This document shows, one piece after another, positions 26,270 to 49,736 of a stretch of DNA of 64,000 bases. Within the stretch, counting starts at the first letter, position 1. Each line of letters begins with the position of its first letter. Source of the stretch: Tetracentron sinense (Eukaryota > Streptophyta > Magnoliopsida > Trochodendrales > Trochodendraceae); contig CM026564.1 of assembly GCA_015143295.1 (NCBI GenBank), forward strand, positions 15,674,416 through 15,738,415, given 5' to 3'. The notes below the pieces were generated by a model that worked only from the letters and a program-made list of their open reading frames with translations, did not search any database and had not been told where the DNA came from. Position numbers and translations under genes: made by a program.

Positions 26270-26389
26270 ATGTCGGCAGGTTCTGAGGGAGCTGCTGCTC
26301 CATTTGATGTTTGTGCTCCTGGTCCATGGGTGGAGGAGGAGTACGTCGAGGAGCCTTTGGAGGAACCTCCCGTAGAGGTTTATCAGTAG
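26270..26389 (+). CDS. LTR-encoded small acidic peptide, 39 aa (solo LTR copy)
   Basis: ATG at 26270 and TAG at 26387. It begins MSAGSEGAAAPFDVC and continues with PGPWVEEEYVEEPLEEPP. The start is 10 nt after the hairpin at 26239-26259. The copies at 42790-42909 and 44923-45042 have exactly the same length and nearly the same protein, with indel-free reading frames although much of the surrounding LTR has changed length. The peptide has no hydrophobic segment and a strongly acidic middle. Function unknown. Confidence 0.5.
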   Translation: MSAGSEGAAAPFDVCAPGPWVEEEYVEEPLEEPPVEVYQ

Positions 26390-26668
26390 GTGGTGTTAGA
26401 TTCTGAGTGGATTAGCAGTGGGTGAGCATGAGTGATTATATCCATGTATTTTGGCGGGCATGTCCACACTTTCTTTGTTTTGATTTCTTTGTATTAAAAC
26501 TTGGACCATGTGTATATACTTAGAGGTTTATTAGACTTCCGCTGTGTCTTATAGTTATGCTTCCGCTGTTATGCTCTGTGGGTGTTTTGCAGGTGGTTTG
26601 TCAAGCAAGTCATGATTTAGTCGTCCGCGATTCACTCTAACTCCTAGGGTGGGTTTTGGGTCGCAACA

Positions 26669-28421: not shown

Positions 28422-29654
28422 TGAAATTTATCCAGATCAATGATCTCTAAGACCTAGAGGGGGGGTGAATAGGTCTATCTAATAATTTCTAACCAATTTT
28501 AATTTTTCAATTAATATGTTTAGAAATCAATGATTAATTCAATCAAACAATCCACACAAATCAAACACAGAAGATTTTTACGTGGAAAACCCTAACGGGA
28601 AAAAACCACGGGACCTTGTCCAGCAATAAACTTCACTATGAAAAGATATCAAGTACAAGAAAAGACCTTACCAAAATAGAAACTACGTTCCTAGGTATAG
28701 ACTCTTACTCTTGATTTCCACGAACCAGCAGGTTCGATCTCCGCCTTAGCAGCTTCGGTTCCACACCGACCAAAACTTTTCAAGCAACTTCAAATCCACG
28801 ATCACACACGATCGATCTCCTTCCACGAAGGCTCCGGATCAAACACCGGACACACACACAAGGTGTAGGGTTGTGAATCAATTTAGTAAATTTCAAACCC
28901 TAGAGGAATCTCATACAGATCTGAGATCACACAATGCAAGATCAAAGATTTAGATCTATACTTGCATTCTCTAGGATCTAAGAAAGAGGAGGGATCAACA
29001 AAGATCTAATAAAAGCAATGAGAAAAACCCTAGAAGAGTTTCTCAGACCTCTACTCTTTCAAAAATATCAAAGACACGAATTAGGTCTCTCAAAAGTTGT
29101 TTATATAGGGTTAAAAAAAGAATCCAGAAAAAGAAAAATTCTTTTTACGGGGACCGATCGATCGGTGCTCACTACCGATCGCTCGGTTCACAACGGATCG
29201 TTCGGTTCTAATGACCGATCGCTCGATCAGAAATCATCTCTCTGGAAAATTTCCCCATACAAAAATATGGTCCAGTCGATAGCCACCGATCGCTAGGTAG
29301 GCCACCGATCGATCGGTCGCAATACCGAGCGATCGGTTGAGACAGAATTTTTGCAAAAACCATTTTCATTTTATTTTTATTTGATTCAACTAAGATCAAA
29401 TAACTTTGGTAGGCTTAAAACTATCCTCCTAGGTATTTTTAGGGTTATCTAAGTCAAATCCAACCTAGGTAGGGGTCTCTAAGTCCATTACCTGTCTAGA
29501 TCCGGAGTAGAAGCTTTTTCTTCTCTTTCTTCAATCTTCTTTAAGCTTTAGCTCTTCTCTTCTCTTCTGACAAGTTGAACATGACTCGACGACTCGACTC
29601 AACTGACCTATCTAATGATCACGGAATTTGCCAACACCTATTTAGGGATTTACA
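28422..29654 (-). repeat. 3' LTR of the SIRE element, 1233 bp
   Basis: In element orientation it starts TGTAAATCCCTAAATAGG at 29654 and ends GGATAAATTTCA at 28422. It holds a palindrome array (29337-29152) with a TATA box (CCCTATATAAAC, 29110-29099) about 40 bp downstream. The spacer between palindromes (29284-29238) matches gypsy LTRs at 46697-46743 and 6737-6783. Confidence 0.95.
29099..29337 (-). promoter_or_regulatory. SIRE LTR promoter module: palindrome array plus TATA box
   Basis: Copies of ACCGATCGATCGGT and ACCGAGCGATCGGT lie in two blocks separated by a spacer with CCAGTCGATAGCC and GAAAATTTCCCCATACAAA (plus-strand reading). The TATA box CCCTATATAAAC follows on the minus strand. 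The right LTR repeats the module at 39032-39271. Some palindromes differ between the two LTRs by one or two bases, so the array is mutating. Confidence 0.75.
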
Positions 29655-30243
29655 ATCTCCCCCTTTGGCAATTCCGGGACAAAACAAGACTAATTCATAT
29701 ACTAGGTTCAAATTTTCCCAATTGATTCAAAAATGGAAAATTGACCTTTACATGACAAAAAAAATATAATTACAAGACTTTTGACATGTTAGCTTGTAAT
29801 GATTCACCAAACTTAGAACCTGTTTGCCTGCACATGCTAAATCAAAAACCTGTGAAGCATGGGAAATAAAATATAGGATAAGAATGAAAATATGTATAAC
29901 CATTCAAAACCATTCACAATTCCACAATTCACAATCCATAACAGGTTAGTATTAACAGGTTAGTATTCCAAAATCTCATCCATCATCCATAACATCTATA
30001 ATACCATTTAACACATTCTCCCCCTTTTTGGCTCGAAATGCCAAAGGTGGATTAGAAAAGGAAAGCATAAACCATTGAAAGGAGATGAGATAGAAAATAA
30101 TGAGCATAAACCAACAAATGTATACATCCATATCAAGTCAATAATATCCAAGTAGGTTTGTACTAAGTACAACCAAGACAAAATACATCAAAATGTCAAA
30201 TAAAAACTGTCACTTGACTAAGATAAACTTCCATCATGAACTA
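29655..30243 (-). other. 3' non-coding segment of the SIRE element with two polypurine tracts
   Basis: The polypurine tract directly before the 3' LTR is CCAAAGGGGGAGAT (29668-29655, minus strand), the expected plus-strand primer. A second, similar tract (AAAAAGGGGGAGAA) lies at about 30034-30019. The rest is AT-rich with no reading frame. Confidence 0.75.
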
Positions 30244-31534
30244 TCACTCCTGGTCATCATCAGAAGTGAGCTGTGACTCATAGTAAGTCCGAAAATCTCG
30301 AACATCTCTCTGTACTCCTAGCACGGCTGCATCGAGAGATCCAAGTCTACCACGAACCTCTGTAGTAAACTCCTCGTATGATGAAATATGAGTCCGGAGT
30401 TCCATCTGCATCTCTCTCATCATCCTCCCAAGATCATCCATAGTGGTCGGAGGAGGACGAGATGACCCAGCACCAACTTCTGCTCCCTCCTCTGTATCTC
30501 GAACTGAGGCATGTGAAAAACTCTGAGCTAGGGTCTTTTTGTTGATTGGACCCTTAGGAACTCGAGTAGGAACACCAGGAGGAGCGATAACTCCTTGAGA
30601 ACCAAGAAGTTTAGTGATGAGTGAACCAAATGGTAGGGCTCCAACTGCTGTACTAGTTTGATGGGCTTGGATCATCAAGTCAATGATGTGAGCGGCAAGA
30701 TCAATATCACGCCCACGTAGAAGACTAAACAAAAATCTAGCTCTATCTTCCCTAAGGTCCGCAGTATGAACCTTTGGATGGATATTTGCACTCATAACTA
30801 GGTTTACTAGTCTAGCATCCTTAGTGAGTTTCGCCACTTCAATAAGAGACCCAACCCAAAACGTAGGAGTACCACTAAGAAAGGTAACAACATGTTCCAT
30901 GGAGTCTTTATCCTCATCAGTCTTATAAATATAAGGATAATATGCATTTGGAACTCGAGGACACCCAAGGAATTTAGAAACCAAATCAGCATTTATGACA
31001 ACAGATTGTTCTAATGCTCGAGATTTGAATGACCATTTTTTCTGGTTGATTTCAGAAAAATTAGAGTAAAATTCTCTAACTAACTGGACAGAAGCAGGAC
31101 CGGATAAGGTAAGTATACCTTCCCATTGACGATCTGAAATGAGTGTAGGAAGATAATAATCACCAAAATCAGAAATATGTATGTCCCTTTCAACCATAAC
31201 ACCTTTCTTGCTAAAATACTCACTATAGAGTTGAGCAGCAGTAGGACTGATAAACTGGGATAACTTACTGGACTGAGAAGATGAAGCTTTACCTTTATTT
31301 TTTTCGAGTTTTATCAGCTAAAGATTTTTGACGATTCTCAATTGTAGAATCAATCATTCTACGAATTGGCCTGTCCCCAATGGAAATACCATGCCCTATT
31401 GGAGTGAAAGTAAATGGCTCTAGGTTTTCCTCATCTTGAGGAGGATCCTCTTGGTTGTTGAGGACCAACCTCCGACGTTTGGGAATGCCAGACATGAGAT
31501 AGGCAAGAAGGATTAACGACAAAACGAAAGCCAT
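30244..31534 (-). pseudogene. extra 3' gene of the SIRE element (plant transposon protein domain), frameshifted
   Basis: Two frames join: 31534-31295 and 31197-30244 with its upstream extension. A run of seven A's (minus strand) near 31300 shifts the frame, and translating past it gives a continuous product of about 430 residues. The product resembles the domain annotated in many plant genomes as a putative plant transposon protein: FYSNFSEINQKKW, SKFLGCPRVPN, and FSLLRGRDIDLAAHIIDLM. The C-terminus has a coiled-coil-like, charged tail. In SIRE elements an ORF in this place has been called env-like, but here I see no convincing transmembrane segment beyond a weak N-terminal one that precedes an alternative start (MSGIPKRRR). 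Function unknown. Confidence 0.75.
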
Positions 31535-31730
31535 GGAAGTAAAAGCAAGAAAACGATGCCCTAGATGAGAAAATCAATCTAAATCGAAGAAAATGCACAA
31601 ATCTTACCTTTCAGATGCTTGGGAAACCTTTAGAATAGAAAGGAATGACCGTATGGAGGATTTGGAGGAGTAGGAACCGAGGGATCGCTCTGGAGGTCGG
31701 AGAACAAGTGAACAAAAAAAATAGAAATGA

Positions 31731-31791
31731 GGGTTTTATAACTCTGTTCACGAAAGACCGATCGATCGGTCTTTAGCACCGAGCGATCGGT
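31731..31791 (-). promoter_or_regulatory. possible internal promoter for the extra SIRE gene
   Basis: On the minus strand a palindrome (31791-31778, ACCGATCGCTCGGT) is followed by a perfect 22-bp palindrome (31774-31753) containing ACCGATCGATCGGT. About 10 bp further is GTTATAAAACCC (31742-31731), a good TATA box, and then a pyrimidine-rich leader of about 200 bp before the ATG at 31534. This is the same palindrome-then-TATA arrangement as in the LTR promoters, placed directly upstream of the extra gene. Promoter activity is inferred. Confidence 0.5.
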
Positions 31792-32977
31792 GGTTTTAAA
31801 ATTTTTCAAAAATTTTTTACTGTTAAAACCTTTTCTCCCCCTCAACCAATGGAACATTGAAAATACATTTTCACCTCAAAATGACCAACTGACCAAAAAA
31901 ATATGCAACATGTGATTTCATAAAAATCATAAATAATAATCACCCAAGAATTGATATATCAAGTATAGGCATAAACAAGGATTATGTAAACATTAATTGA
32001 TTTTCACCGGTGATTAAATATGGTATTTGCATCAAATTCACAATCAGAGTCAAGATACAATTAGAAGTAATGTGAGTATGAAATCAAAATTCATTACTTG
32101 ACTCTTTGAATTGGTTTCCTTCCTTAATCTAGATTTTGACATTATATTTCAAATGGGACTCTAAAATTTTCAAAAACTAGTTTTAAAACCAATAATCATC
32201 CATATTTATATGATGAGCAATCTTTACCCCATATTTGACTAATAAATTTATTTCATATTTTTTTTTCAGTCAAATTGTACTCATTATGAAAATTCTTTTT
32301 GGAGTACACATATATAGACACTAGCACACTGGTGACTTTCACTCAAGTGAGAAGGTAGCTCTTTCTAATGACAGTAGGGGCTTTCACACTAGCAATCCAT
32401 ATAGATACCTACTGTTTGTCTAGGTAGCCATTACTCACTGTTTGCATTCACTAGTAGCTATCACACAAACTCACAGGTAGTCCTCTCCATGTCAATTATT
32501 TTTATAACTAGGGGGCTCACCTTATAGAATTTTTTATGACATTGGTTATTCTAGATTTGATTAATCTAGGGAACCATATGGTATAATATCAGAACTTTTA
32601 AATAGGAACTAAAACCATCTAAAGAATCAGTCAGAGTGCATGTGCAAATTAGAACATCATTGTATGCTCAACTCTAACTGAGGTTAATTAGCATGACCAA
32701 ATTCAATCACAAGATCGAACCAACAATTGAACTATCCTATTTTATTCAATCCTATGAAATATTTATTCTTGGATTATATGGTTAAATATGATTTCAAGGA
32801 AATAACATTAAGCAAAAAGATAGGACAAATGAGGTCATACAAACACATTATTTTTTGCAAATTTTTCAATTTTTTAATGTTTTTGGATTTTTATTACTTA
32901 AAGAAAATAACAAAAAAAATAGCTCTATGACATAAATAAAACATGAAGAACATATAGGCTATGTAACAAGTACACCA
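31792..32977 (-). other. non-coding spacer between pol and the extra gene of the SIRE element
   Basis: AT-rich DNA with no frame that resembles a protein. It contains short repeats of the type ACTAGC/CACTAGTAGC near 32320-32500. A polypurine stretch (GGTTGAGGGGGAGAAAA, minus strand) lies at about 31845-31829. I see no further features. Confidence 0.6.
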
Positions 32978-35663
32978 TTACTCAACTCCACACAAACCGA
33001 TGGATTTCCTAAGGAGTTCAAACCTAAGGGAATCTAAAGGTTTTGTGAGAATGTCCGCATATTGATTCTCTGTTTGGACATACTCAATAGACACAACTTT
33101 TTGCTCAACAAGATCACGGATGAAGTGATGCCTTATGTCTATATGCTTTGTGCGAGAGTGTTGCACAGGATTTTTGGAGATATTGATTGCACTTGTGTTA
33201 TCACAATACACAATCATAGTGCTTCGATCAATCCCATAATCCTTCAACATCTGTTTCATCCACAGAAGTTGGGTGCAACAACTACCAGCTGCTATATACT
33301 CAGCCTCGGCTGTAGACAAGGAAATGGAATTCTGCTTTTTGCTAAGCCAAGCAACCAAGCAGTTTCCAATATAGAAACACCCGCCGGAGGTGCTCTTCCT
33401 ATCATCAGTATTTCCAGCCCAATCAGCATCGAAATACCCCACAACAATGACATTTGTATCGAAAGAATACCAGAGGCCTAAGGACATAGTTCCACTCACA
33501 TAGCGAATGATACGCTTGACAGCAACTAAGTGAGACTCTTTGGGATTTGCTTGATAACGGGCACATGCTCCAACACTAAAGGCTATGTCGGGTCTAGTAG
33601 CAGTTAGGTAGAGCAAACTACCAATCATTCTTCTATAATTAGTCTGATCGACATCCTTCCCTGAAATATCTTTACTAAGCTTTATAGTAGTACTCATAGG
33701 AGTCCTAGCATGCTTAGCAAAACTCATTCCAAATTTCTTCACTAGATTTTTTGCATATTTGATTTGAGATACTGAGATCCCAGAATCCAATTGCTTGATC
33801 TGAAGACCAAGGAAGAAACTTAGCTCACCAACCATGCTCATTTCAAATTCATTTTTCATTTGTTCAGCAAATGAATGAGCATGTAAGTCTAATGTGGAAC
33901 CAAATACTATGTCATCAACATATATCTGGGCGATGACAATATCACCTTTCACTTTCTTTATGAAAAGGGTTCTGTCTACTCCCCCTCTCGAAAATCCGTT
34001 TTCCAAGAGATAAGTAGTCAGCCTCTCATACCAAGCTCTTGGAGCTTGCTTTAAACCATAGAGGGCCCTTTTTAGTCGATAAACTTGATCAAGGTGATGT
34101 GGATCTTCAAACCCTTTTGGTTGTTCCACATAGACTTCTCCATGTAGAATGCCATTCAGAAAGGCACTCTTAACATCCATTTGAAAAAGTTTGAATTTCA
34201 TATTACAAGCCACAGCTAGAAGAATTCTTATTGATTCTAGCCTGGCTACAGGAGCAAAAGTTTCATCGAAGTCAATACCTTCAATTTGGGTGTATCCTTG
34301 TGCAACTAACCTAGACTTATTTCTTATGATAGTACCTTTTTCATCAGATTTGTTCTTGAAAATCCATTTGGTACCTATCACATTTGTATTGTTAGGCCTA
34401 GGTACTAAATACCAAACATCATTCCTAGTAAACTGAAGTAACTCTTCTTGCATTGCATTTATCCAATTATCATCTGCAAGAGCTTCAGCTACATTCTTGG
34501 GTTCAAAAGATGAAGTATAGCAAATGTAGCTAACTTCATTTTCAATTTGTTTCCTCGTTCTCACTCCACTTTCAACATCACCAATAATATCAGTGGAGGT
34601 GTGAGGACTCATGACCCTAGGATGTGTAGGTTTTAATGGAGATGTTTGCTTATCAATAGGTGGAGTTGAAATAATTTCAACATCTTCATTTTCAGCACTT
34701 TCATCATCCTCACATTGCACATTTTCAACACCGGAGTCATCTACAATTACATTTATGGACTCCATAATTGTAGAGGTTCTCAAGTTATACACTCGATAAG
34801 CTCTACTGTTGGTGGAATACCCAAGAAATATCCCTTCATCACTCCGGGATTCAAATTTTCCCAGTTGCTCTCTATCCTTAAGGATATAGCATTTACTTCC
34901 GAATTCTCGAAAGTACTTGACACTAGGTTTCTTGTTATTCCACAACTCATATGGGGTTTTCCTTGTTCCAGGTCTTACAAAAACTCTATTAACTATATAG
35001 CAAGCAGTGTGAACTGCCTCAGCCCAGAAATGAGAAGCTAGATTGTTGCTATGAAGCATAACTCTAGCCATCTCTTGGAGAACCCTGTTCTTCCTCTCTA
35101 CTACACCATTCTGCTGAGGTGTAATAGGTGCAGAAAATTCATGTTTGATACCCGACTCATCACAAAAGTCGTTGTACTTAGAGTTTTCAAACTCCTTTCC
35201 ATGATCACTTCGTATTCGAGTGATTGAGCATCTTTTCTCATTTTGAATTTTCAGGCAAATACTTTTGAAATTGTCAAAAGCATCGGATTTCTCTCTTATA
35301 AATGCCACCCATGACATTCTAGAGAAATCATCAACCATGACTAGGATGTATCGCTTTCCACCTAGACTTTCAGTTCTTGTAGGACCCATAAGGTCCATAT
35401 GAATTAATTCCAGTGGATATGAAGTAGCAATACTTGAAGTCTTCTTATGTGGGGTCCTAATTTGTTTACCAATTTGGCATGGCCCACACACAGCAGTAGA
35501 AGGCTTTCCTAGTTTGGGAACACCTCTCACAAGCTCTTGCTTAGAGATTTTACATAGGTCTTTGAAGTTCATGTGATTCGGTGCCACAAATCAACCTCCT
35601 CAATTCTAGTCTTATAACAGACATTTGAGGGAATAGGACTGGGAGTTAAGCCGTAGCAATTGT
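32978..35663 (-). pseudogene. pol: pol of the SIRE element: integrase, reverse transcriptase, RNase H
   Basis: A long open frame (869 codons from 35587). The integrase has the zinc-binding end CGPCQIGKQ near residue 35, the first Asp in IHMDLMGP, a second in [12 protein letters not shown], and Glu in [13 protein letters not shown] has [12 protein letters not shown] and the catalytic YVDDIVFGS. RNase H has [26 protein letters not shown] and [11 protein letters not shown]. The frame ends GLCGVE just before a spacer. Two small compensating indels lie in the pre-integrase segment (about 35665-35590: the frame leaves at ENH-stop and returns at HMNFKDLC), which breaks the junction with protease but leaves the rest in the original frame. 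Confidence 0.93.
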
Positions 35664-36046
35664 CAGTGGTTCTCAATCCTTCTTGGAACACACTTACCTT
35701 TACCATTAATGACTAAGCATTTATTTTGGGTAAAGTGCACAGCATGATTATCATCACATAGTTGACTTATGCTAATTAAATTAGCTTTCAGTCCTTCAAC
35801 AAACAAGGCATCTTTCAATTTAGGTATGCCTGGTGAATTGATGATACCCTTTCCTTTGACTAAAGACTTGCTTCCATCACCAAAAGTAACAGTCCCATCA
35901 GGACAGTCCTCAAATTGAATAAATAAGGACTTGTTACCTGTCATATGCCGAGAACACCCACTGTCGAAGTACCACATTTCTGTGTTTTGGGCTTTCAAGG
36001 CAGTATGAATGACAAAGCACTTAAGGTCTTCCTTTCTCACATACAC
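35663..36046 (-). pseudogene. aspartic protease of the SIRE element
   Basis: About 128 codons with the copia protease signature MWYFDSGCSRHMTG (active-site Asp in DSG), followed by VTFGDGSKSLVKGKGI and a LISISQLCDD block. It is in frame with gag upstream, separated from it by one TAA codon (36059-36061). It cleaves the gag-pol polyprotein. The 3' end is lost to a one-base shift, after which the pre-integrase segment (DNCYGLTPSP, then VDLWH) continues in another frame. The GTG at 36046 is only the first codon of an open stretch, not a real start. Confidence 0.88.
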
Positions 36047-36058
36047 AGTCTTTAAACT

Positions 36059-38293
36059 TTATTTAGATCTTTGATCATTAATTTGTGTAGTAGTGACCTT
36101 TTTCCTTTTTGTCCTCCTTGACCTTTTTCTGTTTTGTTCAGTTCTAGTTTTTTGATAAGTCAAATTATTTCCTCTTGAATAATCATTTGGAATAAATTGA
36201 CCAGTCCTTGTCCTAGAGATTTGAGCAATTCTATTAACATCATCGCTCAACATTCTAGACTTTTCAGCTAGAACCTGAATCTGCCTTTGAAGAGTCCCTT
36301 GACTTAGATTTTGGTTCCATGAACCATTTCGGGGAGCTCTCCTAAATGCATTACAATTAGGTCGAATGTGACCTCTCACACCACAAAAGTGACATGTGGG
36401 TATGAATCTTGGTAGAGGAGGAAGATTTCTTCTAACTAGAATTTGATTCCTTAAAGCATTCACTCTAGGAGCTGTATTTCTAGGCTTTACAAAATTTGTA
36501 TAAGCCTTAGTACTTGATGTAGAAGGTAAATTTTCTTTAGGTTCAGAATGTATTGGCTCAAACACTGCACTAGCCATTGTTCCAACAGCTAAAGGACCAG
36601 TTGGTGTGTCAACATGTCCTATCCCAGATCTACTAGAATTTGATCCATACTTTCTAACTAATTCATCTAGGCAGCTGGTGTTACCAAACATTCTTACTTC
36701 TTTTTCAAGAGTATAGACCTTCTGAATCAAGTCAGTCTTGTCTTTAAGGGTAATTTGGTGTTCTTTTTCAAGAAATTTCACCTTATCAACAAGAGAAACT
36801 TTAAAAGTTTCAAGCTCCATTTGCAGAGTTCTTAACTCTTCAATTTCTTTCATGGAAGTGTCTCTTTCAACTTCTAATTTTCTGACCACATTAGTCAATG
36901 AGACATTCTCTTCCAAAAGACATTGAACTTTTATAACAAATGCTTCTTTTTCATTTTCCAACTGACTAACTAGTGCACTCTTCTCTTCTGCTACTAGTTT
37001 ACAGATATCTCTTTCATTTTGAATGAGTTTGAGTTTTTTGCTCAAAGAGATTTTTGTTTTAGTCAGTTTCAAACTTTCAGCATACAACTTATCATAAGTT
37101 GTTTTCAAATCTTCATCACTTTCAGAGTCAGTTTGACTCTTCTGTAAGTCATCACTAGACTCAGTATGAATACTCTCATCACTTCTATCCTTTTCATCAA
37201 CCGCAGAGGTAGTCTCAAGAATCCCAGAAAGGGAAACAGTGAAAGCCGTATGATTTCCAGTATCTTCACTTGAAGAGGAACTGTCCGATTCTTCATTCTC
37301 GGAATCACTGTCATCCCAACAGGCATTCATCACCTTGCCCTTACTCTTCTTCTTGTTAGGACAGTTAGGTGAAATATGACCGAAGCCATGGCATTCATAA
37401 CATTGAACACCTTGGGATTTCTTGTCGCCACTTTTGGAATTTTTCTTGTTTTCCCAGGGCTTAGACTTTGACTTATCAAAAGATTTTCCTCCCTGTTTGG
37501 GATTAAACCTCTTTTTCGTTCTAAAAAATTTTCGAAATTTTTTAACGAAAAGAGCCATTTCTTCCTCATTCATTTCTCCATCACTGTCATCCTCATCCAA
37601 AGTTTCCTTGATGGTTTTCAAGGCTAAAGATTTATTCTTCTTGGATGGACGTAGATTGAGTTCATAGGTTTGGAGTGATCCAACCAATTCGTCAATCTTC
37701 AGAGAGTCAACATTTTTACTCTCTTCGATTGCAGTGACTTTGGGTTGAAATCTCTCTGGGAGAGATCTAAGGACTTTTCTAACTATTTTGGACTCAGATA
37801 TTTTCTCACCTAAATTGAAACTAGCGTTGACAATGTCACTAAGTTTTGCATAGAATTCATCAAAAGTGTCATTGTCTTCCATGTTTAAATGTTCAAATTT
37901 GGTGGTTAACATTTGGAGTTTTGAGATTTTAACAGTGGTAGTACCCTCGTGGGTAATTTCAAGAATGTCCCAAGCCTCCTTTGCTGTTTCACATGAAGAA
38001 ATTCGTCTGAATTCCTCAGCAGTGACTGCAGTGAAGATAGCATTGAGACCTTTAGTGTTCCATCCACTTTAATCGAGCTCTTCTCTGGTCCATTCATCAG
38101 AATATTTGACGACAGTCAAATCACCTACAGTTTTTACGGGCGTAGTCCACCCATTCTGAATAGACATCCAAATTCTCTCGTCAATAGATTTGAGAAAGGC
38201 TCTCATTCTAGCTTTCCAGTATGCATAATTATTTCCATCAAAAAGTGGGGGACGAGAGACGGATCCTCCTTCTCTTAGAGTACTCATGATCAC
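36059..38293 (-). pseudogene. gag: gag of the SIRE element, one nonsense codon
   Basis: ATG at 38293 with RPPLFDGNNYAYWKARMRAFLKSI. A TAA at 38069-38071 interrupts the frame, where the related copy at 21805 has a serine codon, and the frame then continues unbroken for 660 codons. Domains: capsid (KEAWDILEITHEGTT, LRSLPERFQPKVTAIEESK), basic stretch, first zinc knuckle CYECHGFGHISPNC, acidic serine-rich region, a long coiled coil (about 200 residues), second zinc knuckle CHFCGVRGHIRPNC and a basic C-terminus. The long gag with two knuckles fits SIRE/Maximus. It ends at TAA in frame with protease, which may be a readthrough site. Confidence 0.9.
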
Positions 38294-38340
38294 GGATAAT
38301 ACAGGATCACACTTAAGGGATTAGCCTTATCAGTGAACAA

Positions 38341-38352
38341 GCTCTGATACCA
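38341..38352 (-). other. primer-binding site of the SIRE element (initiator Met tRNA)
   Basis: TGGTATCAGAGC on the minus strand, two bases after the LTR end. It is the same primer as the other elements in the window. Confidence 0.93.
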
Positions 38353-38354
38353 AT

Positions 38355-39587
38355 TGAAATTTATCCAGATCAATGATCTCTAAGACCTAGAGGGGGGGTG
38401 AATAGGTCTATCTAATAATTTCTAACCAATTTTAATTTTTCAAGTAATATGTTTAGAAATCAATGATTAATTCAATCAGACAATCCACACAAATCAAACA
38501 CAGAAGATTTTTACGTGGAAAACCCTAACAGGAAAAAACCACGGGACCTTGTCCAGCAATAAACTTCACTATGAAAAGATATCAAGTACAAGAAAAGACC
38601 TTACCAAAACAGAAACTACGTTCCTAGGTATAGACTCTTACTCTTGATTTCCACGAACCAGCAGGTTCGATCTCCGCCTTAGTAGCTTCGGTTCCACACC
38701 GACCAAATCTTTTCAAGCAACTTCAAATCCACGATCACACACGATCGATCTCCTTCCACGAAGGCTCCGGATCAAACACCGGACACACACACAAGGTGTA
38801 GGGTTGTGAATCAATTTAGTAAATTTCAAACCCTAGAGGAATCTCATACAGATCTGAGATCACACAATGCAAGATCAAAGATTTAGATCTATACTTGCAT
38901 TCTCTAGGATCTAAGAAAGAGGAGGGATCAACAAAGATCTAATAAAAGCAATGAGAAAAACCCTAGAAGAGTTTCTCAGACCTCTACTCTTTCAAAAATA
39001 TCAAAGACACGAATTAGGTCTCTCAAAATTTGTTTATATAGGGTTAAAAAAAGAATCCAGAAAAAGAAAAATTCTTTTTACGGGGACCGATCGATCGGTG
39101 CTCACTACCGATCGCTCGGTTCACAACGGATCGATCAGTTCTAATGACCGATCGCTCGGTCAGAAATCATCTCTCTGGAAAATTTCCCCATACAAAAATA
39201 TGGTCCAGTCGATAGCCACCGATCGCTCGGTAGGCCACCGATCGATCGGTCGCAATACCGAGCGATCGGTTGAGACAGAATTTTTGCCAAAACCATTTTC
39301 ATTTTATTTTTATTTGATTCAACTTAGATCAAATAACTTTGGTAGGCTTAAAACTATCCTCGTAGGTATTTTTAGGGTTATCTAAGTCAAATCCAACCTA
39401 GGTAGGGGTCTCTAAGTCCATTACCTGTCTAGATCCGGAGTAGAAGCTTTTTCTTCTCTTTCTTCAATCTTCTTTAAGCTTTAGCTCTTCTCTTCTCTTC
39501 TGACAAGTTGAACATGACTCGACGACTCGACTCAACTGACCTATCTAATGATCACGGAATTTGCCAACACCTATTTAGGGATTTACA
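38355..39587 (-). repeat. 5' LTR of the SIRE element, 1233 bp
   Basis: Same length and ends as 28422-29654. I count about 14 substitutions and no indels between them, roughly 1.1 percent. This indicates recent insertion: with a commonly used plant rate of 1.3e-8 per site per year it would be well under a million years, but the species and its rate are unknown. Promoter module at 39271-39086 and TATA at 39043-39032. Confidence 0.95.
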
Positions 39588-42497
39588 CCATGAATCCCAG
39601 TTTGAACCTAACCCAAGCTAAACCCTAATCGATCATCTGCCTAGAATTCCAGTTCAAACCTAACCCCAACTAAATCCTAGCTGAACCACTACCTGAATCT
39701 TGGTAACCTAACCCCAATTAAACCATTGTTGAACCTCTACCTGAAACCCGGTTCTAACCTAAACCCAAATAATACTAGCTGAACTTCTACTAGAATTCCT
39801 ATTCGAACCTAACTCTAACTGAACCTTCATGGAACTTTTGTCCGAATCCAAGTTCAAATCTAATCGCAGCTAAACTTGTTGGAACTCTGCCTGTATACTA
39901 CGTCAAACCTAACTCCAACTAAACCCTTGTCGAACCTCCGCCCAAATCTCAATTCGAACATAACCCCAACAAAACTTGGTCAAACCTATGTTTGAATCCC
40001 GTTTCAAACCTAAGCCTCAATAAAGCCCTAGTCGAACCTCTGCCCGAATCCTAGTTCAAACTTAACCCCAACTAAACTCAAGCCGAGCCTTCGCCTGAAT
40101 CCAAGTATGAACCAAATCCATGCTAAACCCTGGTTGAACCTCTGCCCGAATCCCAATTCAAACCTAACCACAATTAAATCCTTGCAAAACCTCTATCCGA
40201 ATCCCGGTTCAACCCTAACCCCAACTAAACCATAGTTGAACCACTTCCCAGATCTCAGTTCGAAGTTAGCCCCAGCTAAACCCTGGTCGAACCTCTGCCC
40301 GAATCCCGGTTCGAACCTAACCCCAACTAAACCCTAGTTGAACCTCTACTCGAATCCCTGTTCGAACCTAACCCATCTAAACTCTAGCTGGACTTTTGCA
40401 TGAATCTCGATTTGACCCTAACCCCAGCTAAACCATATATAAACCTCTCCCCCAAATTCCGGTTCGAACTTAACCCCAACTAAATCCTACCAGAACCTCT
40501 ACTTGAATCCCTGTTTGAACCTAACCCCAGCAAAACCATTTTCAAACTTCTGCTCGAATCCCGGTTCAAACCTTACCCTAGCTAAATGTTAGTCAAACCT
40601 CTTCCCGAATCTCAGTTTGAACCTAACACCAGAAAAACTTGATTGAACCTTTGCCCGTATCCCAATTTTTGAACCTTTGCCCGTATCCCAATTTGAACCT
40701 AACCCCAACTAAATCCTAGCAAAACCTCCAAAAAAATCACGGTTTGAAACTAACCCCAGCAAAACAAAAGTTAATCCTCTTCCCGAAACCCCGTTCAAAC
40801 CTAACCCGATCTAAACTCTAGTTGAACCTCCACTTGAATCCCAGTTTGAACCTAACCCCAGTTAAACTCAAAGCGAACCTTTCCCGAATCCTGGTCTGAA
40901 CCTAACACCCGCTAAACCCTAGTCAAACCTATACCCCGAATTCCGGTTCAAACCTAACACCAACTAAATCCTTTCTAAACCTCTACTTGAATCCCGGTAA
41001 CCTAACCCCAACTAAACAATAATCGAACCTCTGCCCGAATACTGGTTCGAACCTAACCCCAACTAAAACCCAGTTGAACCTTTGCTCAAATATCAGTTCA
41101 AACCTAACCCCAACTAAACCTAGTTGAACCTTTGCTCGAATACTAGTTCAAACCTAACCCATCTAAACTCCAGCTAGACCTTTGCACGATTCCCAGTTTG
41201 AACCTAACCCCAACTAAACCCTATTCGAACCTCTGCCCCGAAATCCAGTACAAACCTAACGCAACTAAATCCTAGCGGAACCTCTACCTCAATCCCGATT
41301 TGAACCTAATCCCAGCTCAACCATAGTCAAGCTTCTGCTCGAATCCCGATTCAAACCAAACCTCAGCTAAATCCTTGTAGAACTTATGCCGAATCCCAGT
41401 TCGAACTTAACCCCAACTAAACCCTGGTTGAACCCTTACCCGAATCTCTATTAGAACCTAAGCCTAGCTAAACCCTCATCGAACCTCTACAGAAATCTCG
41501 GTTCAAAACTAAAACCCGCTAAACCTTTGTCAAAAATCTGTGCCTGAATCCTGATTTTAACCTAATCCCAACTAAACCCTAGTCAAACCTTTGCTTGTAT
41601 TCGGGTTCGAACCAGACCCGAGCTATACCCCAGTCGAACCTCTACCTGTATCCCAGTTTGAACCTGACCCCAACAAAATCCTAGTAAAACCACTGCCCAA
41701 ATCCCGGTTAGAACCTAATCCCAACAAAACCCTACCGAAACTTTACCCAAATCCTGATTAGAACCTAATCCCAATTAAACTATACTCAAGGCTCTCTCCG
41801 AATCCCGGTATAAATTAAACCCTAACTAAACCTTGGTTGAACCTCTGCCCGATTCACGGTTCAAATCTAAGCCCAACTAAACCCTAGTTGAACATCTAAC
41901 CGAATCCCCATTTGAACCTAACACTAACTAAACCTTAGTTGAACCTTTGCCCTAATCCCAGTTCAAACCTAACCACAACTAAATCCTAGCATAAGTTTTA
42001 CCGGAATCCTATTTCGAACCTAATCCCAGCGAAACCATTGTTGAACCTCTACCCAAATACAGGTTTTAACCTAACCCAAATAAACCCTTGTCGATACTCT
42101 ACCTGAAATTGAGTTCGAACATAACCTAGCTAAACATTGTCGAAGCTCTGCCTGAATCCTGGTTCGAACCTAACCCAACCAAACCCACTACTCATAATTT
42201 TATTTTATTTTATTTTTATTTTTTCGTTGCATCAGAATCTGATTATACTTGATTGTATTCAATCGGTCGAAGCAAAATAGAGTGTATAAACAGAAATTTT
42301 TTTTATTATTCGAACACACCAACTAGTTATGAAATAACATCGATAGCCTATCGAACCTTTTCCCGAATCATGCTTTGATCTAACCCCAGTTAAACTCTTG
42401 TCGATGACTGCGCGAATCCCAGTTTGAACTTAACCCAAGCTAAACCCTAGTCGAGCCTCTGCGTAAATCCCGATTCGAACCTAACATCTGCTAAATC
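39588..42497. repeat. 51-bp satellite, segment 4
   Basis: More than 50 diverged units of the same satellite. The segment begins with the CCATG duplication of the SIRE element and is cut on the right by a gypsy LTR at 42498. A local duplication is visible near 40660-40690, where a phrase of about 28 bp is repeated. It is interrupted at about 42181-42350 by unrelated AT-rich sequence. Confidence 0.92.
42181..42350. other. AT-rich interruption of the satellite
   Basis: About 170 bp with an ATTTT/TTATT-rich start (TTTTATTTTATTTTATTTTT) and no similarity to the 51-bp unit. The satellite resumes at about 42352 (ATCGAACCTTTTCCCG). I see no terminal repeats, so its origin is unknown. Confidence 0.6.
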
Positions 42498-42789
42498 TGT
42501 GGTGACCCAAAACCCACCCTAGGAGTTAGAGTGAACTTTGGACGACTAATCATGACTTGCTTGACAACCAACCTGCAAAACAACCACAGAGCATATACAA
42601 TAGAGGATAACGGCGGAAGCATAACTATAAGACACAACGGAAGTCTAACAAACCTCTAAGTATATACACATGGTCCAAGTTTTAATACAAAGAAATCAAA
42701 GCAAAGGAAGTGCGGACATGCCCGCCAAAATACATGGATATAATCACTCATGCTCACCCACAGCTAATCCACTTAGAATCTAACACCAC

Positions 42790-42909
42790 CTACTGATAAC
42801 CCTCTATAGGAGGTTCCTCCAAAGGCTCCTCGACGTACTCCTCCTCCACCCATGGACCAGGACCACAAACATCAAATGGAGCAGCAGCTCCCTCAGAACC
42901 TGCCGACAT
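42790..42909 (-). CDS. LTR-encoded small acidic peptide, 39 aa (LTR A copy)
   Basis: ATG at 42909 and TAG at 42790, exactly the same length as the copies in the solo LTR and LTR B. It begins MSAGSEGAAAPFDVC and contains PWVEEEYVEEPLEE. The hairpin GCTGAG...CTCAGC is at 42940-42920, 10 nt before the ATG. Function unknown. Confidence 0.5.
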   Translation of the reverse strand: MSAGSEGAAAPFDVCGPGPWVEEEYVEEPLEEPPIEGYQ

Positions 42910-43195
42910 AAGAAGAACGGCTGAGCATGGAATACTCAGCGGGTACGAAGCACTAACCAACAGTCATAGCATACGGATAGCATACATAAAGCAGGAAACA
43001 ATTCACGCATATAAAGCAGGAATGATTCATATCATGACAATAAAGTAAAGCAATATAATTCATCATGTTGCATTCATAAAAGCCGGTAAAACCCTTGAAA
43101 TCTTGTGCACTTGACTTGACTGAGATTACCCTTTTTATGCTTGAAAACTTGTCTACCGCGTCATGCGTGTCATGCTTGTATCATGCGTGTATCAT

Positions 43196-43527
43196 GCTTG
43201 CTTGTTCTGAAAAGTAATCTACTTGTCAGGGAAGGGAGACCCTTCTTCCTAGAATGCTCATGCTTGTCATGCCATGTCTTGTCATGCTTGCTTGGAAAAG
43301 TAACTACTTGTGAGGGAATGGAGACCCTTCTTCCTAGAATGCTTATGCTTGTCATGCCATGTCTTGTCATGCTTGCTTGGAAAAGTAACTACTTGTGAGG
43401 GAAGGGAGACCCTTCTTCCTAGAATGCTTATGCTTGTCATGCCATGTCTTGTCATGCTTGCTTGGAAAAGTAACTACTTGTGAGGTAAGGGAGACCCTTC
43501 TTCCTAGAATGCTCATGCTTGTTCTTC
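43196..43527. repeat. tandem repeat in LTR A (four ~85-bp units)
   Basis: Four units of 84-86 bp, each with AAAAGTAACTACTTGTGAGG, GGGAGACCCTTCTTCC and TGTCATGCCATGTCTTG. Two shorter related repeats (GAGGGAAGGGAGACCC) follow to about 43635. The units resemble those of the solo LTR but not those of LTR B or L. Confidence 0.9.
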
Positions 43528-44430
43528 CACTTGTGAGATTCACTTGTGAGATGTCCTTGTGAGATGCACTTGCGAGGGAAGGGAGACCCTTCTTATGATA
43601 TGTATGCACTTGCGAGGGAAGGGAGACCCTTCTTATGAAAATGTATGATTGTCTTGTCCTTGCCAAAAGCGAGGTAAAACATATCGTCGGATATGCCCCA
43701 CCTCTAAATCCCATTCTTGAAAACCTCGGTAAATCATGTCATGCATGCCGTGCTCGTGGGAATCGTGTACATACTTGCATTTAAATTTAAATATGACATT
43801 GGGTAATTCACAACACATATAACATTAATGATTTAGCAATGTAATATTCACATCATTTAGGGAAAGCAAGAAAACACACTATCATAGGCCCTAGCAATAT
43901 CCATAATTTATTAGGCATGCATTTCCTAATTTACAACTCACTTTATTCACCTTGGCATTTCATCAAACATGGTGTGTTCATTATTGATTTACCCTACAAC
44001 ATGCTTTTCTAGATGGGCTTTACTCAAATCATGCATGGATGTTCATTATTGGAACAATGCCCTCCCCATTTTAATCATCACAACACAACCATTGGCATCC
44101 AATCCCCTATTCCATCTCCATTCACCATTCACAACCATCCATCTCATAGCACATGTGTAGTTAAAGGAAAACAAAGAGAAATAAAGGGAAAAGAGGAACT
44201 ATAACTAGGAGGGTAGCAAGAAGTACCGACCTTGAAGAAATGAGGAAGAAACCCCTTGAGAAAATCCTCACTTGATTGGAATGATCCAAGCTTGATTTGG
44301 GGAAGATCCAACCCTTGATTGAAGCTCTTCTTGGTTTCAAGCAAAACCCTCTTTGGAATGCTCAAGATCCTTTCCTTCTCTTTCTAGGAACTCTCCTTGG
44401 TTTAAGGTAACCCAAAAACCCTCCTAAGGT

Positions 44431-44623
44431 CTTCTATTTATAGTGTAAGGGGTGAAAAACCCCTAAAAATTGCATCCAAGAAAGTAAAATCACGTATCTA
44501 CGATCGTTCGTAGCGATTTACGATCGATCGTAGCCTTCTACGATCGATCGTGGCTTCCTACGATCAATCGTAGTTTCACCCGAGAGTTTCCAGCATTTCT
44601 GGGGATTTACGATCGATCGTAGC
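44431..44623 (-). promoter_or_regulatory. LTR A promoter region: TACGATCGATCGTA array plus TATA box
   Basis: Five copies or near-copies of TACGATCGATCGTA (44495-44622) lie about 50 bp upstream (minus strand) of CACTATAAATAGAAG (44445-44431). The core CGATCGATCG is the same as in the ACCGATCGATCGGT arrays, but the outer bases differ in a compensated way (T/A instead of C/G pairs), so the palindrome is kept. The start of the LTR at 63602 has the same variant. Confidence 0.7.
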
Positions 44624-44922
44624 TGTCGCGACCCAAAACCCACCCTAGGAGTTAGAGTGAATCTTGGACGACTCAATCATGACTTACATGACTTGCTTGA
44701 CAAACCAACCTGCAAAAACCCACAGAGCATATACAATAGAGGACATTATAGCGGAAATATAACTATAAAACACAGCGGAAGTCTAACAAACCTCTAAGTA
44801 TATACATATGGTCCAAGTTTATACAAAAAGTAACCAGAAGAAAGTGCGGACAGACCCGCCAAAATACATGGATATAATCTCTCATCTCACCCACAGCTAA
44901 TCCACTCAGAATCTACAACCAC

Positions 44923-45042
44923 CTAATGGTAACCCTCTACCGGAGGTTCCTCAAAAGGCTCCTCGACGTACTCCTCCTCCACCCATGGACTCGGAGCACA
45001 GATATCAAATGGAGCAGCTGCTCCGCCGTCACCTGCCGACAT
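44923..45042 (-). CDS. LTR-encoded small acidic peptide, 39 aa (LTR B copy)
   Basis: ATG at 45042 and TAG at 44923. It begins MSAGDGGAAAPFDIC and contains SPWVEEEYVEEPFEEPP, with conservative and synonymous changes relative to the solo LTR copy and no indel. The hairpin at 45073-45053 precedes the ATG by 10 nt. Confidence 0.5.
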   Translation of the reverse strand: MSAGDGGAAAPFDICAPSPWVEEEYVEEPFEEPPVEGYH

Positions 45043-45383
45043 AAGAAGTACGGCTGAGCATGGAATACTCAGCGGGTACTAAGCACTAACCAGTAGTCAT
45101 AGCATACAGATAGCATACATAAAGGAGGAAGCAAGTTGCATATATAGAACATGAACAATTTATATCATACAAGGAAGCAAAACAATTTATAATCATGCTT
45201 GTATTTCGTAGAAAGCCGATGAAACCTCTTGAAAACATCGTGCACTTGACTTGACTTGAAAATACCATTTCCGTGCTTGAAACTTATTATGTTGTCTTAT
45301 CTTGTCATATCATGCGTGTCATGTCATGTCATGCGTGTCATGCGGTTATCATGCTTGCTTGTTCATAATTTAAACATGTTCAC

Positions 45384-45598
45384 ATGCCTAGTTGCCGTTC
45401 ATAGTCCGTCACAACTAGTACCCTATATGCAGATGGGTATGCCTAGTTGCCGTTCATAGTCCGTCGCAACTAGCATCCATGCAGAATGTGAATGCCGAGT
45501 TGCCGTTCATAGCCCGTCGCAACTAGCATCCATGCGGAATGTGAATGCCTAGTTGCCGTTCATAGCCCGTCGCAACTAGCATCCATGCAGAATGTGTG
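45384..45598. repeat. tandem repeat in LTR B (four ~53-bp units)
   Basis: Four units with ATGCCTAGTTGCCGTTCATA and CCGTCGCAACTAGCATCC, period 53-56 bp. The unit is unrelated to the repeats at the same LTR position in LTR A, the solo LTR and element L. Confidence 0.9.
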
Positions 45599-46540
45599 AT
45601 GCTATGTTATGCGTGTCATGCCATGCTATGCTATGCGTGTCATGCGATGCTATGCATGTCATGCGAGGGGATGGGAGACCTTTCCCTATGCAATGCATGA
45701 TTGTCTTGCCCTTGTCAAAAGCGAAGTGAAACATATCTTAGGATATGCCCCACCTCTACGTCCCATACTCAAAACATCGGTAAATCACGTCATTTCATGC
45801 GTGCTCGTGAGATCGTGTGCATACTTGCATTTGGAATTAAATATGACAATTTGGAGTGATTCACAAGGCATAGCATATAACAATTTAAGTAATTAATAAT
45901 CTACACATTCTAAGAAATGTAAGAAACACACTATCATGAACCCTAACAAATTTCAAGAGCAATTAAACATGGGTTCCCTTAATTTATCATTTATTTTATT
46001 CACCTTGGCATTTCATCAAACATGTGGTGCGTTCATTATTCACTTAAACCTAAATCATGCTTTTCTATGTGGGTTATGCTCACATCACACTTGTATGTTC
46101 GTTATTAGTAAAATGCCCTTTCCCATTCGTTCATCACATCATCCACACGGCATCCATTCGCCAACATCCATCTCCATTCACCATTCATACCACCAATCTC
46201 ATAACACATATATATGTGAAGGAAAACAAGGAGAAACAAAGGAAAAGAGAAGCTATAACTAGGAGGGTAGTAAGAAGTACCGACCTTGACAAATGGGGGA
46301 AGAAATCCTCCACCAAACGCACGTGAGTTGCTGCCCTAGCTTGAGGAGAGTGCCCCACACGAGCTCCACGAATGCTTGAACCGAAATCTTGAAGAAATCG
46401 AGCTTGAGGTTGATCTAGGGTCTCAAACCCCTTTGATTTCTCTTCAAAATGGAAACCCTAGGTTTAGGAAAACCTTCTCCTTTCTCTCTATTCTCCCAAA
46501 TCTTCTAAAGGTTGAGAATGAGCCCTAAAGGCTCGGGCAA

Positions 46541-46798
46541 TCCTATATAAGAAAGGGTATAACACCCGAATGCCGAAAATGCCCTTAGTGAAAATTCTGT
46601 AAAAACGCGTGCACCGAGCGATCGGTGTTAATGACCGATCGATCGGTTGCCTACCGATCGATCGGTTTCATAACCGAGCGATCGGTTAAAATCTCACTCT
46701 CTGGAAAATTCCCCCATACAAAACTCTTGACCAGTCGATAGCCTCCGAGCGATCGGTTTTGGACCGATCGATCGCTCCATGGACCGAGCGATCGGTGG
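46541..46798 (-). promoter_or_regulatory. LTR B promoter module: palindrome array plus TATA box
   Basis: Seven copies or near-copies of ACCGATCGATCGGT / ACCGAGCGATCGGT (46798-46611) in two blocks around a spacer (46743-46697) with CCAGTCGATAGCC and GGAAAATTCCCCCATACAAA. The TATA box CTTATATAGGA is at 46551-46541 on the minus strand. The spacer is nearly identical to that of the copia LTR at 29238-29284. Confidence 0.75.
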
Positions 46799-47006
46799 TC
46801 TGTAGGTCCAAACTGTTTTGCCCATAACTTTTGACTCGTTCGTCCGATTTTGACGATTCAACTTGCGTTGGGTTCGTACATCGAAAACGAACATTTCTGA
46901 CGTTTCGGAATTTCCAATTTCTTCCTTATTTATTAATTGCATTACTTTAAAGGAAAAATGGCTACGAAGGGTCATGCATAAATGTGAAAAGGTCCGGGGC
47001 TCTACA

Positions 47007-47108: not shown

Positions 47109-49736
47109 TCATTCAAACAATTCCGGGTACTTCGCTTTGACTTCGGCTTCACGCTCCCATGTAGCTTCTTCCCGAGCATGGTGTTGCCATTGCACTAGAA
47201 CCAAAGGGATAGTCTTGTTGCGAAGCACTTGATCTCTTCGATCCAAAATCTGAACCGGCTCTTCAATCAAGGTGAGGTCCTCTCGAATTTCCAACGGTTC
47301 CAATTCTAGTACATGCGAAGGGTCCGCAATGTACTTCCGAAGCATAGATACGTGGAAAACGTTGTGAACCGCGGCCATGTGAGGTGGGAGAGCTACTCGA
47401 TAAGCAACTTCACCAACCCGCGTGATAATCTCAAACGGTCCAACATAGCGAGGACTGAGCTTGCCTCGCTTTCCAAATCTCATGATCCCTTTACTAGGAG
47501 ATACTTTCACAAAAACTTGATGCCCTACTTGAAATTCCAAGTCCCTACGGCGCGTGTCCGCATAACTTTTCTGGCGATCTTGAGCGGCTTTCAACCGATC
47601 CCGGATGATCTTGACTATACTAGCAGTTTGCTCAATCAACTCCGGACCAAGTACTTTTCTTTCTCCTACCTCATCCCAGTAGAGAGGAGACCTGCAGCTT
47701 CGCCCATACAAAGCCTCGAACGGAGCCATTTGGATACTCGCCTGATAGCTATTGTTGTAGGCGAATTCAACCAAAGGCAAATGCTCTTCCCAACTGCCTC
47801 TGAAATCCATCATACAAGCCCGAAGCATGTCTTCAATGACTTGGTTCACTCTCTCGGTTTGTCCATCTGTCTGTGGATGAAAAGCGGTGCTGAAATCGAG
47901 TCGGGAACCCATAGCCTCCTGGAAGCTTTTCCAGAATCGTGATGTGAATCTTGGATCCCGATCCGACACAATACTGACAGGCACTCCGTGCAACCTCACC
48001 ACTTCCTTGATGTACAAAGCAGCTAACTGACTAGAGTTGAAAGTAGTTCGGTAAGGCAAGAAGTGAGCGGACTTCGTCAAACGATCCACCACTACCCATA
48101 TCGCATCTGAACCCCTTGCCGTCTTTGGCAAGCCAACTATGAAATCCATGGATATGTTCTCCCATTTCCACTCGGGAATCGGAAGGGACTGTAATAGACC
48201 TGCGGGCCGCATGTGTTCTGCTTTCACCTGTTGGCACACCAAGCACCGTGCTACATATTCCGCAACCTCCCTCTTCATATTCCGCCACCAAAAGTGACTC
48301 TTGAGGTTCCGGTACATCTTCGTACCCCCTGGATGCACAGTGTACTTTGCCCGGTGGGCTTCATCCATAATCTCCCTCCGAAGATTTGCATTGGCTGGAA
48401 CACACAGCCTTCCCTTGAATGTGATAGCACCTCGGCTAGTGAGAGAAAAGTCCTCACTACCCTTAGCAACTTCCTTGTCCCGATAAGCCAACAATTCAGC
48501 ATCCGTGGCTTGGTATTCTTGGATCAAATCTATAATGTATGGCCGAACCGTGACATTTGCCAAGATAGGACTACGGACAGAGTCATTCACACTAATGTCC
48601 AGATTTGCCAAGTCTTCAAGTAGCTTCCACTCCTGCACTAACATGCATGCTAATAACCCCGGAGGTCTTCTACTCAAAGCATCAGCCACTACATTTGCTT
48701 TACCCGGGTGGTATTGAATGGTACAATCATAGTCCTTTAGGAATTCCATCCAACGCCGTTGCCTTAGATTCAATTCCTTTTGGGAAAAGAGGTACTTGAG
48801 GCTCTTGTGGTCCGTATACACATAGAATTCCACCCCGTATAAGTAATGTCGCCAGATCTTGAGTGCAAACACGACTGCGGCAAGCTCTAAGTCGTGCGTG
48901 GGGTAATTCTTCTCATGCTCCTTCAATTGCCTTGATGCATAGGCAATGACCTTCTTGTGTTGCATAAGCACACATCCAAGTCCAACGTGTGAGGCATCAC
49001 TGTACACCTCATACCCAAGAGGTCCGGATGGCACTGTAAGGACAGGAGCTGTAGTAAGCCTCTTCTTCAGTTCCGTGAAACTGATCTCACATTTGTCGCT
49101 CCAAACAAACTGCGCATTCTTCCGTGTTAGGTGAGTAAGCGGTGCTGCAAGGCTAGAGAAACCCTCTACGAATCTCCTGTAGTAGCCTGCCAGCCCAAGA
49201 AAGCTGCGTATCTCAGTAACACTCTTGGGCCTCGCCCAACTCATAACAGCTTCTATCTTCTTCGGATCAACGGAGATGCCTTCCGCGGAAACAACGTGGC
49301 CTAGGAATGCCACCTCTTCCAACCAAAACTCACACTTGCTAATTTTGGCGTATAGCTTGTGCTCTCTTAACATTTCCAATGCGAGGCGAAGGTCGCGTAT
49401 GTGATCTTCCCGTGTCTGGGAATAGACCAAAATGTCATCAACAAATACAATCACGCACCGATCTAGGTATGGTCGGAACACCCGGTTCATCAAATCCATA
49501 AAGGCTGCCGGCGCGTTCGTGAGACCAAAGGGCATCACCAAGAACTCATAGTGCCCATATCGAGTCCTGAAAGCAGTTTTGGGAACATCTTCCACCTTAA
49601 TCTTCAATTGGTGATAACCCGATCGAAGATCTATCTTTGAGAAAAATCTTGCTCCCTTCAACTGATCGAACAAGTCGTCAATCCTAGGCAATGGATACCT
49701 ATTCTTTATAGTGACTTTGTTCAATTGCCGATAATC
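47109..49736 (-). CDS. pol: pol of element 3: RT (partial), RNase H, integrase, chromodomain
   Basis: An uninterrupted frame of more than 870 codons, the best-preserved gypsy pol in the window. It enters inside RT ([19 protein letters not shown]), and the catalytic FVDDIL is about 95 residues in. RNase H follows ([26 protein letters not shown]). Integrase has [11 protein letters not shown] and CLVCQ for zinc, Asp in MDFIVGLPK and [10 protein letters not shown], and Glu in QTERVNQ. The C-terminus ([36 protein letters not shown]) is a Tekay/Del-type chromodomain, thought to guide integration to heterochromatin. Codon 149 or so is Glu where L and R have TAG. The N-terminal half of RT is missing, so the protein is incomplete. 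Confidence 0.95.

Follow-up and report, generated by a model that had tools for sequence, protein, structure and literature searches.

Palindrome arrays lying upstream of the TATA box of long terminal repeats (LTRs), known as RM boxes, have been described in 13 Sireviruses and were reported as absent from the other Ty1/copia elements surveyed (PMC2829016, Bousios et al. 2010). Additional RM copies occur upstream of env in env-bearing Sireviruses, and the core CGG-CCG was found in 12 of the 13 published elements, Tnd-1 being the one without it (PMC2829016). The LTRs of Sire and Retrofit elements were called clearly different from those of Metaviridae in an LTR-model study (PMC3601003). Here we analyzed a 64-kb stretch of Tetracentron sinense DNA (contig CM026564.1, positions 15,674,416 to 15,738,415; hereafter the window), in which a Sirevirus of the Ty1/copia class (S1) and four LTR copies of Ty3/gypsy chromoviruses (A1, A2, B, and B′), representing at least three insertions, carry the same cassette of palindromic boxes. 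All cassette copies compared come from this single window. Given that Sireviruses are known from the literature to have such arrays, the S1 side is expected; what is new is the homologous array in chromovirus LTRs.

As in the parts of the RM-box study drawn on here (PMC2829016), the boxes are palindromes present in many copies within the LTR, are CpG-rich, lie shortly upstream of TATA, and recur upstream of env. However, RM boxes were published as Sirevirus-specific among Ty1/copia, with gypsy elements mentioned in three passing places of that text, whereas in this window the chromovirus LTRs too carry a homologous array together with its spacer, so that Sirevirus specificity does not hold. 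Moreover, the box cores in S1 are CCG-CGG, and CGG..CCG appears only across the gaps between boxes; we therefore call the boxes RM-like and not RMs. Del/Tekay LTRs have variable 5′ CpG islands in monocots and none in the cluster with all eudicot elements (PMC4029996, Cruz et al. 2014). The resemblance lies in a part of the 5′ half of chromovirus LTRs that is variable and rich in CpG and that, as suggested there, may aid escape from host control, but the word palindrome occurs nowhere in the text of that paper, and its eudicot Del cluster lacks islands. The target repeats of VANC proteins in VANDAL transposons are likewise arrays of noncoding motifs that evolve quickly and determine the set of responding elements; in the portions cited (PMC5735166, PMC10398659), however, VANDALs are not LTR elements, and VANC is known and element-encoded, whereas for the cassette a factor is only proposed. 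The palindrome-rich LTR region of maize Sireviruses (Bousios et al. 2016, via PMC5311732) also has regulatory palindromes, rapid evolution, and small-RNA hotspots, but the passages concern maize Sireviruses and do not mention gypsy elements. No title describing an LTR cassette common to copia and gypsy was found among the open-licence papers matched and listed, which does not prove absence.

LTR comparison confirmed the six cassette-bearing LTRs that a preliminary description had assigned to SIRE and gypsy elements. That description had placed two palindrome blocks around a spacer of about 47 bp. The layout held, but the cassette is better resolved as seven 14-bp palindromes in 186 bp, arranged as three boxes, a 57-bp spacer between boxes 3 and 4 (71 bp from start to start), and four boxes, with register and strand kept. 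In the sense of the element, successive box starts in S1 and A1 are separated by 20, 19, 71, 21, 19, and 21 bp, and those of B and B′ agree within 1 bp. A search of the whole window for ACCGATCGATCGGT with up to two mismatches gave 42 matches, 40 of them in the six LTR copies and the other two at 31757 and 31778, while ten mononucleotide shuffles gave 0-2 matches each. TATA-like motifs corresponding to the TATA boxes described for the SIRE and B copies follow the last box at 45 bp in S1 and at 63 bp in B, with the correction that S1, B, and these motifs all lie on the minus strand. The ratio of observed to expected CpG was 1.76-1.89 in the cassette versus 0.55-0.80 in the remaining LTR (S1 5′, A1, B, and B′).

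In BLASTN of LTR against LTR, covering the sense strand, each of the four gypsy LTRs had a single main match with S1. As observed, S1 318-502/503 corresponded to gypsy 211-398 with 74.6-78.5% identity and E values of 9.6e-29 to 5.7e-38, the match of S1 with A1 being ungapped. To within one base, the main match extends from the first palindrome to the last, and the lesser matches listed between S1 and the gypsy LTRs fall inside the cassette. Alignment of the S1 cassette with those of A1, B, and B′ scored 163-173, compared with shuffle maxima of 25-30. In contrast, the flanks of S1 against those of A1, B, and B′ did no better than chance, with 24-99 of 200 shuffles as good in each of the six tests. 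The spacer alone scored 53-70 against A1, B, and B′, which none of 500 shuffles reached in any of the three comparisons; the A2 spacer was scored without shuffles. An antisense control was made for the spacer, and in all four gypsy LTRs it scored 53-70 in the sense orientation against 16-21 in the antisense one, the next best place in the window scoring 29. With a spacer that aligns in sense only and above its shuffles, and with flanks at chance level, these alignments indicate that the S1 and gypsy cassettes are homologous and not convergent.

Conservation within the cassette differs by compartment. Between S1 and A1, 89/98 positions are identical in the boxes and 47/55 in the spacer, but 15/27 in the inter-box gaps, whose lengths are equal; between S1 and B, the counts are 88/98, 48/56, and 14/26, respectively. 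Thus, the gaps keep their lengths but not their letters. A1 and B share 160/185 positions in the cassette versus 168/210 in the upstream and 210/301 in the downstream flank, and B and B′ share 177/185, 191/210, and 221/303 of them. The cassettes of the gypsy copies diverge mutually by 4-19% (A versus B copies, 13-19%) and from S1 by 23-26%. In box 2, a single dyad position is broken in all four gypsy copies, and both S1 copies are perfect there, although S1 has other altered boxes. The possibility that the cassette is a miniature inverted-repeat transposable element or other insert was rejected: no target duplication was seen by eye at the cassette edges, and the outer boxes are ordinary members of the array. 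The preliminary proposal of a cis-acting cassette of about 200 bp, exchanged between superfamilies or taken by both from a third source, agrees with the homologous block of about 190 bp in copia and gypsy LTRs; a response of both families to one host factor, which it had also suggested, is hypothetical.

Table 1. Positions in the window of the cassette copies, the elements that carry them, and other palindrome arrays.
Feature	Position	Strand	Remarks
Cassette in S1 5′ LTR	39086..39270	-	boxes 1-3, spacer, boxes 4-7
57-bp spacer of S1 5′ LTR cassette	39161..39217	-	alignable with gypsy copies
Cassette in S1 3′ LTR	29153..29337	-	
Cassette in LTR A1	6652..6836	-	
Cassette in LTR A2	60596..60777	+	boxes 5-7 altered
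Cassette in LTR B	46613..46796	-	TATATAG at 46543-46549
Cassette in LTR B′	24608..24791	+	
S1 element	28422-39587	-	two LTRs, copia genes between
S1 Sirevirus 5′ LTR	38355..39587	-	1233 bp; 98.9% identical to S1 3′ LTR
S1 Sirevirus 3′ LTR	28422..29654	-	1233 bp; polypurine tract (PPT) AAAGGGGGAGA stops 1 base ahead of LTR
TATATAA, S1 5′ LTR	39034..39040	-	45 bp past box 7
TATATAA, S1 3′ LTR, matching place	29101..29107	-	read from sequence
S1 gag, Retrotran_gag_2	36062..38068	-	domain match
S1 pol part, in copia order (integrase before RVT_2)	32981..35590	-	domain match
Two linker boxes in S1, same type as LTR boxes	31757..31791	-	about 440 bp upstream of env-like open reading frame (ORF)
S1 env-like ORF, stop-to-stop	30247..31317	-	Pfam PF20167
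Chromovirus LTR A1, 5′ LTR	4578..7048	-	LTR comparison
Chromovirus LTR A2, 3′ LTR	60384..61533	+	internal deletion begins just past box 7
Chromovirus LTR B, 3′ LTR	44624..47006	-	LTR comparison
Element B pol: reverse transcriptase, RNase H, integrase, chromodomain (gypsy order)	47112..49799	-	domain match
Chromovirus solo LTR B′	24396..26668	+	5-bp target duplication CCTGA
Gypsy LTR C, 5′ part missing	42498..44623	-	five CTACGATCGATCGTAG-type boxes within 44498-44622; TATAAAT 44436-44442
Gypsy LTR D, cut by window end	63602..64000	+	four CTACGATCGATCGTAG-type boxes
Copia element S2 LTR	20392..21608	+	six GGGTCGACCC-like boxes, 2 + 4; partner LTR 23029-24268

We next consider the two classes of elements. 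In S1, whose LTRs differ at 14 positions, rve (59-158) precedes RVT_2 (390-632) in a single ORF, which is the copia gene order. The named relatives of its pol, among 120 listed of 7952, are from flowering plants, such as Rhododendron and Acer, with 65-66% identity over 99% of the query. The PPT AAAGGGGGAGA occurs repeatedly, at 29666 and 30027, with a two-mismatch copy at 31844, and multiple identical PPTs upstream of the 3′ LTR are a Sirevirus trait. An inverted repeat, GAATTGCCAA ... TTGGCAAATTC, spans the junction of PPT and 3′ LTR, as Sireviruses have; it was found by eye, without a statistic. Counting one LTR, the element has nine palindromic boxes, seven in the LTR and two in the linker, each with no more than two mismatches, where at least eight are required for RM boxes. 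The linker boxes are of the ACC type and lie ahead of env (the ORF begins at 31317), which is a published Sirevirus trait, as is a TATA box after the array. The PPTs, junction repeat, TATA, and env-upstream boxes thus fit, at the level of sequence features, the published Sirevirus plan. The element is flanked by CATGG (28417-28421) and CATAG (39588-39592) in its own sense, a target duplication with one mismatch.

The order of reverse transcriptase, RNase H, and integrase, together with a chromodomain match, was found in B and, spread over three ORFs, in A2. The chromodomain scored 29.4 bits in A2 and 22.9 bits in B, so that B falls below the Pfam cut-off of 25.1. For the Del/Tekay lineage, a long LTR of 1.1-4.4 kb is expected in combination with GGG at -8 to -10 of the U5 attachment site; here, the LTRs of A1, B, and B′ measure 2.27-2.47 kb, A1 and A2 end in GGGGCGTTACA, and B and B′ have T at -8. 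The internal part of A1 (1-6659) is 87.7% alike to A2 52823-59846. A1 (1-7053) and A2 (52823-61538) are mutually inverted and near-identical in patches (87.7% overall), and the 5′ flank of A1 and the 3′ flank of A2 both read GAGAC. An inversion may have split a single element into these two, or the arrangement may stem from the assembly beside the N gap at 52705-52804.

We consider it reasonably likely that the cassette is a Sirevirus-type U3 element, common to both classes by descent, that recombined into a chromovirus before subfamilies A and B split and that acts as a phased array of factor sites. Such an array, with its palindromic boxes immediately upstream of TATA, would be a regulatory element native to Sireviruses, because published Sireviruses have such arrays and S1 has linker boxes. 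The transfer, probably from Sirevirus to chromovirus, would have occurred through a recombination whose two breakpoints lay at or within the outer boxes; CGATCGATCG, which the ACC and TAC box types have in common, may have been a crossing point. Entry before the A/B split is suggested because the distance between S1 and the gypsy copies exceeds that between A and B. In terms of function, a dimeric host DNA-binding factor would occupy each 14-bp dyad, the spacing of 19-21 bp would equal about two helical turns, the spacer would be bound by something else, and boxes and spacer would jointly set the activity of the downstream promoter. We infer this function from position, phase, and conservation. 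A similar phase in the other arrays of the window supports it: four of the five C boxes are exactly 20 bp apart, D boxes are 19-21 bp apart, and S2 boxes are 20-22 bp apart within each group.

Several observations weigh against this proposal. The direction is deduced from the linker boxes of S1 and from where Sirevirus arrays have been published, rather than from a rooted tree, and the S1 core (CCG-CGG) is not the published one. The 71 bp across the spacer correspond to a non-integer number of helical turns, and no clear TATA was found close to the cassette in A1, A2, or B′. Furthermore, the cassette holds four of the 14 positions at which the S1 LTRs differ, all of them in boxes and none in the gaps or spacer. 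A permutation test of box order was uninformative, as 2160 (S1-A1), 2880 (S1-B), and 1008 (A1-B) of 5040 orders were as good. A variant in both half-sites at once was seen in none of the 42 boxes; since the copies are not independent, we did not use this as evidence.

The exchange may also have run in reverse, from a chromovirus or from an unseen third element, with S1 as the recipient. Four gypsy copies in two subfamilies, compared with one Sirevirus insertion in the window, would favor this, as would the different box type in S2, the other copia element. However, we judge it unlikely, given the survey in which, among copia elements, such arrays were confined to Sireviruses (PMC2829016, in the parts cited), the recurrence of the S1 box type upstream of env, and the box 2 dyad, broken in the gypsy copies and perfect in S1, with the reservation that S1 has altered boxes of its own. 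Conversion among neighboring copies at this locus only, which the preliminary description had named as a way to overturn its claim, is very improbable. Although nested, related copies lie close together and A1 and A2 are near-identical in patches, the divergence of S1 from the gypsy cassettes exceeds that between A and B copies, and each side has family-specific states, the gypsy copies from at least three insertions sharing their own, for example in box 2. Convergence or chance likeness of simple palindromes is scarcely credible: box sequence is of low complexity, but the box-free 57-bp spacer aligns in sense only and, for A1, B, and B′, with scores that none of 500 shuffles attained. This spacer is alignable, contrary to the other outcome that the preliminary description had regarded as fatal.

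Two further explanations are compatible with exchange and concern function. The palindromes may matter as nucleic-acid structure, such as hairpin RNA, a small-RNA source, or a recombination hotspot, rather than as protein sites. The predicted RNA folds beat 200 of 200 shuffles (z of -7.3 for S1 and -4.6 for B), palindrome regions of maize Sirevirus LTRs are hotspots of small-RNA mapping in the passages cited (PMC5311732), and two rearrangements have an end at or within an array (the A2 deletion and B in C). Nevertheless, a palindrome array folds well regardless of its role, the box-free spacer is conserved all the same (47/55), and the predicted folds of S1 and B differ. Thus, we regard this explanation as doubtful, although the strong predicted folding leaves a small-RNA role open. 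Alternatively, the boxes may serve an element-encoded, VANC-like trans-factor, such that chromoviruses with ACC boxes hijack the factor of S1. The box type varies by family (ACC, TAC, and GTC) within one window under a similar arrangement; VANC targets are fast-diverging tandem repeats in noncoding regions (PMC5735166, PMC10398659); and additional Sirevirus boxes accompany the env gene (PMC2829016), as far as the parts of these sources go. However, the S1 env-like ORF has PF20167 as its sole domain match, no homologues were found at E<=0.001, its single-sequence structure model was uninformative (predicted local distance difference test, 38), and no DNA-binding protein was identified, which makes this explanation distinctly improbable.

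The other palindrome arrays of the window bear on how such cassettes may change. A 119-bp stretch of D that stops shortly before its array is 81.5-84.9% alike to A1, A2, B, and B′; therefore, related LTRs carry two box types in equivalent positions. The first ~370 bp of C, which include its array and TATA, differ from B′, and the two LTRs are alike downstream. C lacks the 5′ part of the LTR, so the distance of its array from the LTR start is not measurable; its TATA lies 55 bp beyond the last box. The S1 spacer had no match above chance in C or D (494 and 361 of 500 shuffles as good). A likeness of the S2 spacer to that of S1, based on a common TGTATGG, was rejected because 828 of 2000 shuffles were as good; with the whole S2 LTRs, 347 and 342 of 500 shuffles were as good. 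The S2 array is not CpG-rich, with observed-to-expected ratios of 0.31 and 0.56. The different palindrome type of C and D suggests cassette turnover. A tentative extension, which we hold with little confidence, is that the palindrome type is an address that would choose the trans-acting factor and that unrelated elements would repeatedly swap as a whole by recombination at the boxes; A and B would have the ACC address of S1, C and D the TAC address, and copia and gypsy elements with the same address would be co-activated as a guild.

The internal deletion of the A2 LTR starts at 60777, right past box 7, and GGTTGG stands at the junction in both A2 and A1. LTR B is apparently inserted inside the palindrome array of LTR C (44600-44624); the opposite end of this insertion was not located. 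Because of these two cases, palindrome arrays may break easily. LTR retrotransposons have been reported to insert with a weak preference at palindromes (PMC6911290). At 60723-60763, A2 has a repeated 19-bp unit of box and gap, a sign of array turnover at the level of units.

A homologous cassette across the copia/gypsy line would mean that regulation can be inherited independently of coding genes, and its sharing could explain joint bursts of unrelated families. It also offers a natural experiment on the role of Sirevirus palindromes, a question left open in 2010. We predict that ACC-type copia and ACC-type gypsy elements have a common expression pattern that is missing from TAC-type gypsy elements. 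A search of genome contigs with a spacer pattern gave no matches. In viral contigs, two DNA patterns gave no matches and a third gave two, one of them in a contig that lacks CGATCG in the 13330 bases covered; protein patterns matched 2, 8, and 46 stretches, none encoding a relative.

Minisatellites were observed at 5270-5706 (64-85 bp), 43208-43529 (85 bp), 45384-45596 (53 bp), and 11439-11711 (91 bp), and the first three sit in LTRs A1, C, and B of the chromoviruses, respectively, each within the 3′ half. A 51-bp satellite, with telomere-like TAGGGTTTAG in its reverse complement, occupies 19673-20300, 26690-28421, and 39588-42190 and is broken up by S2, the B′ solo LTR, and S1.

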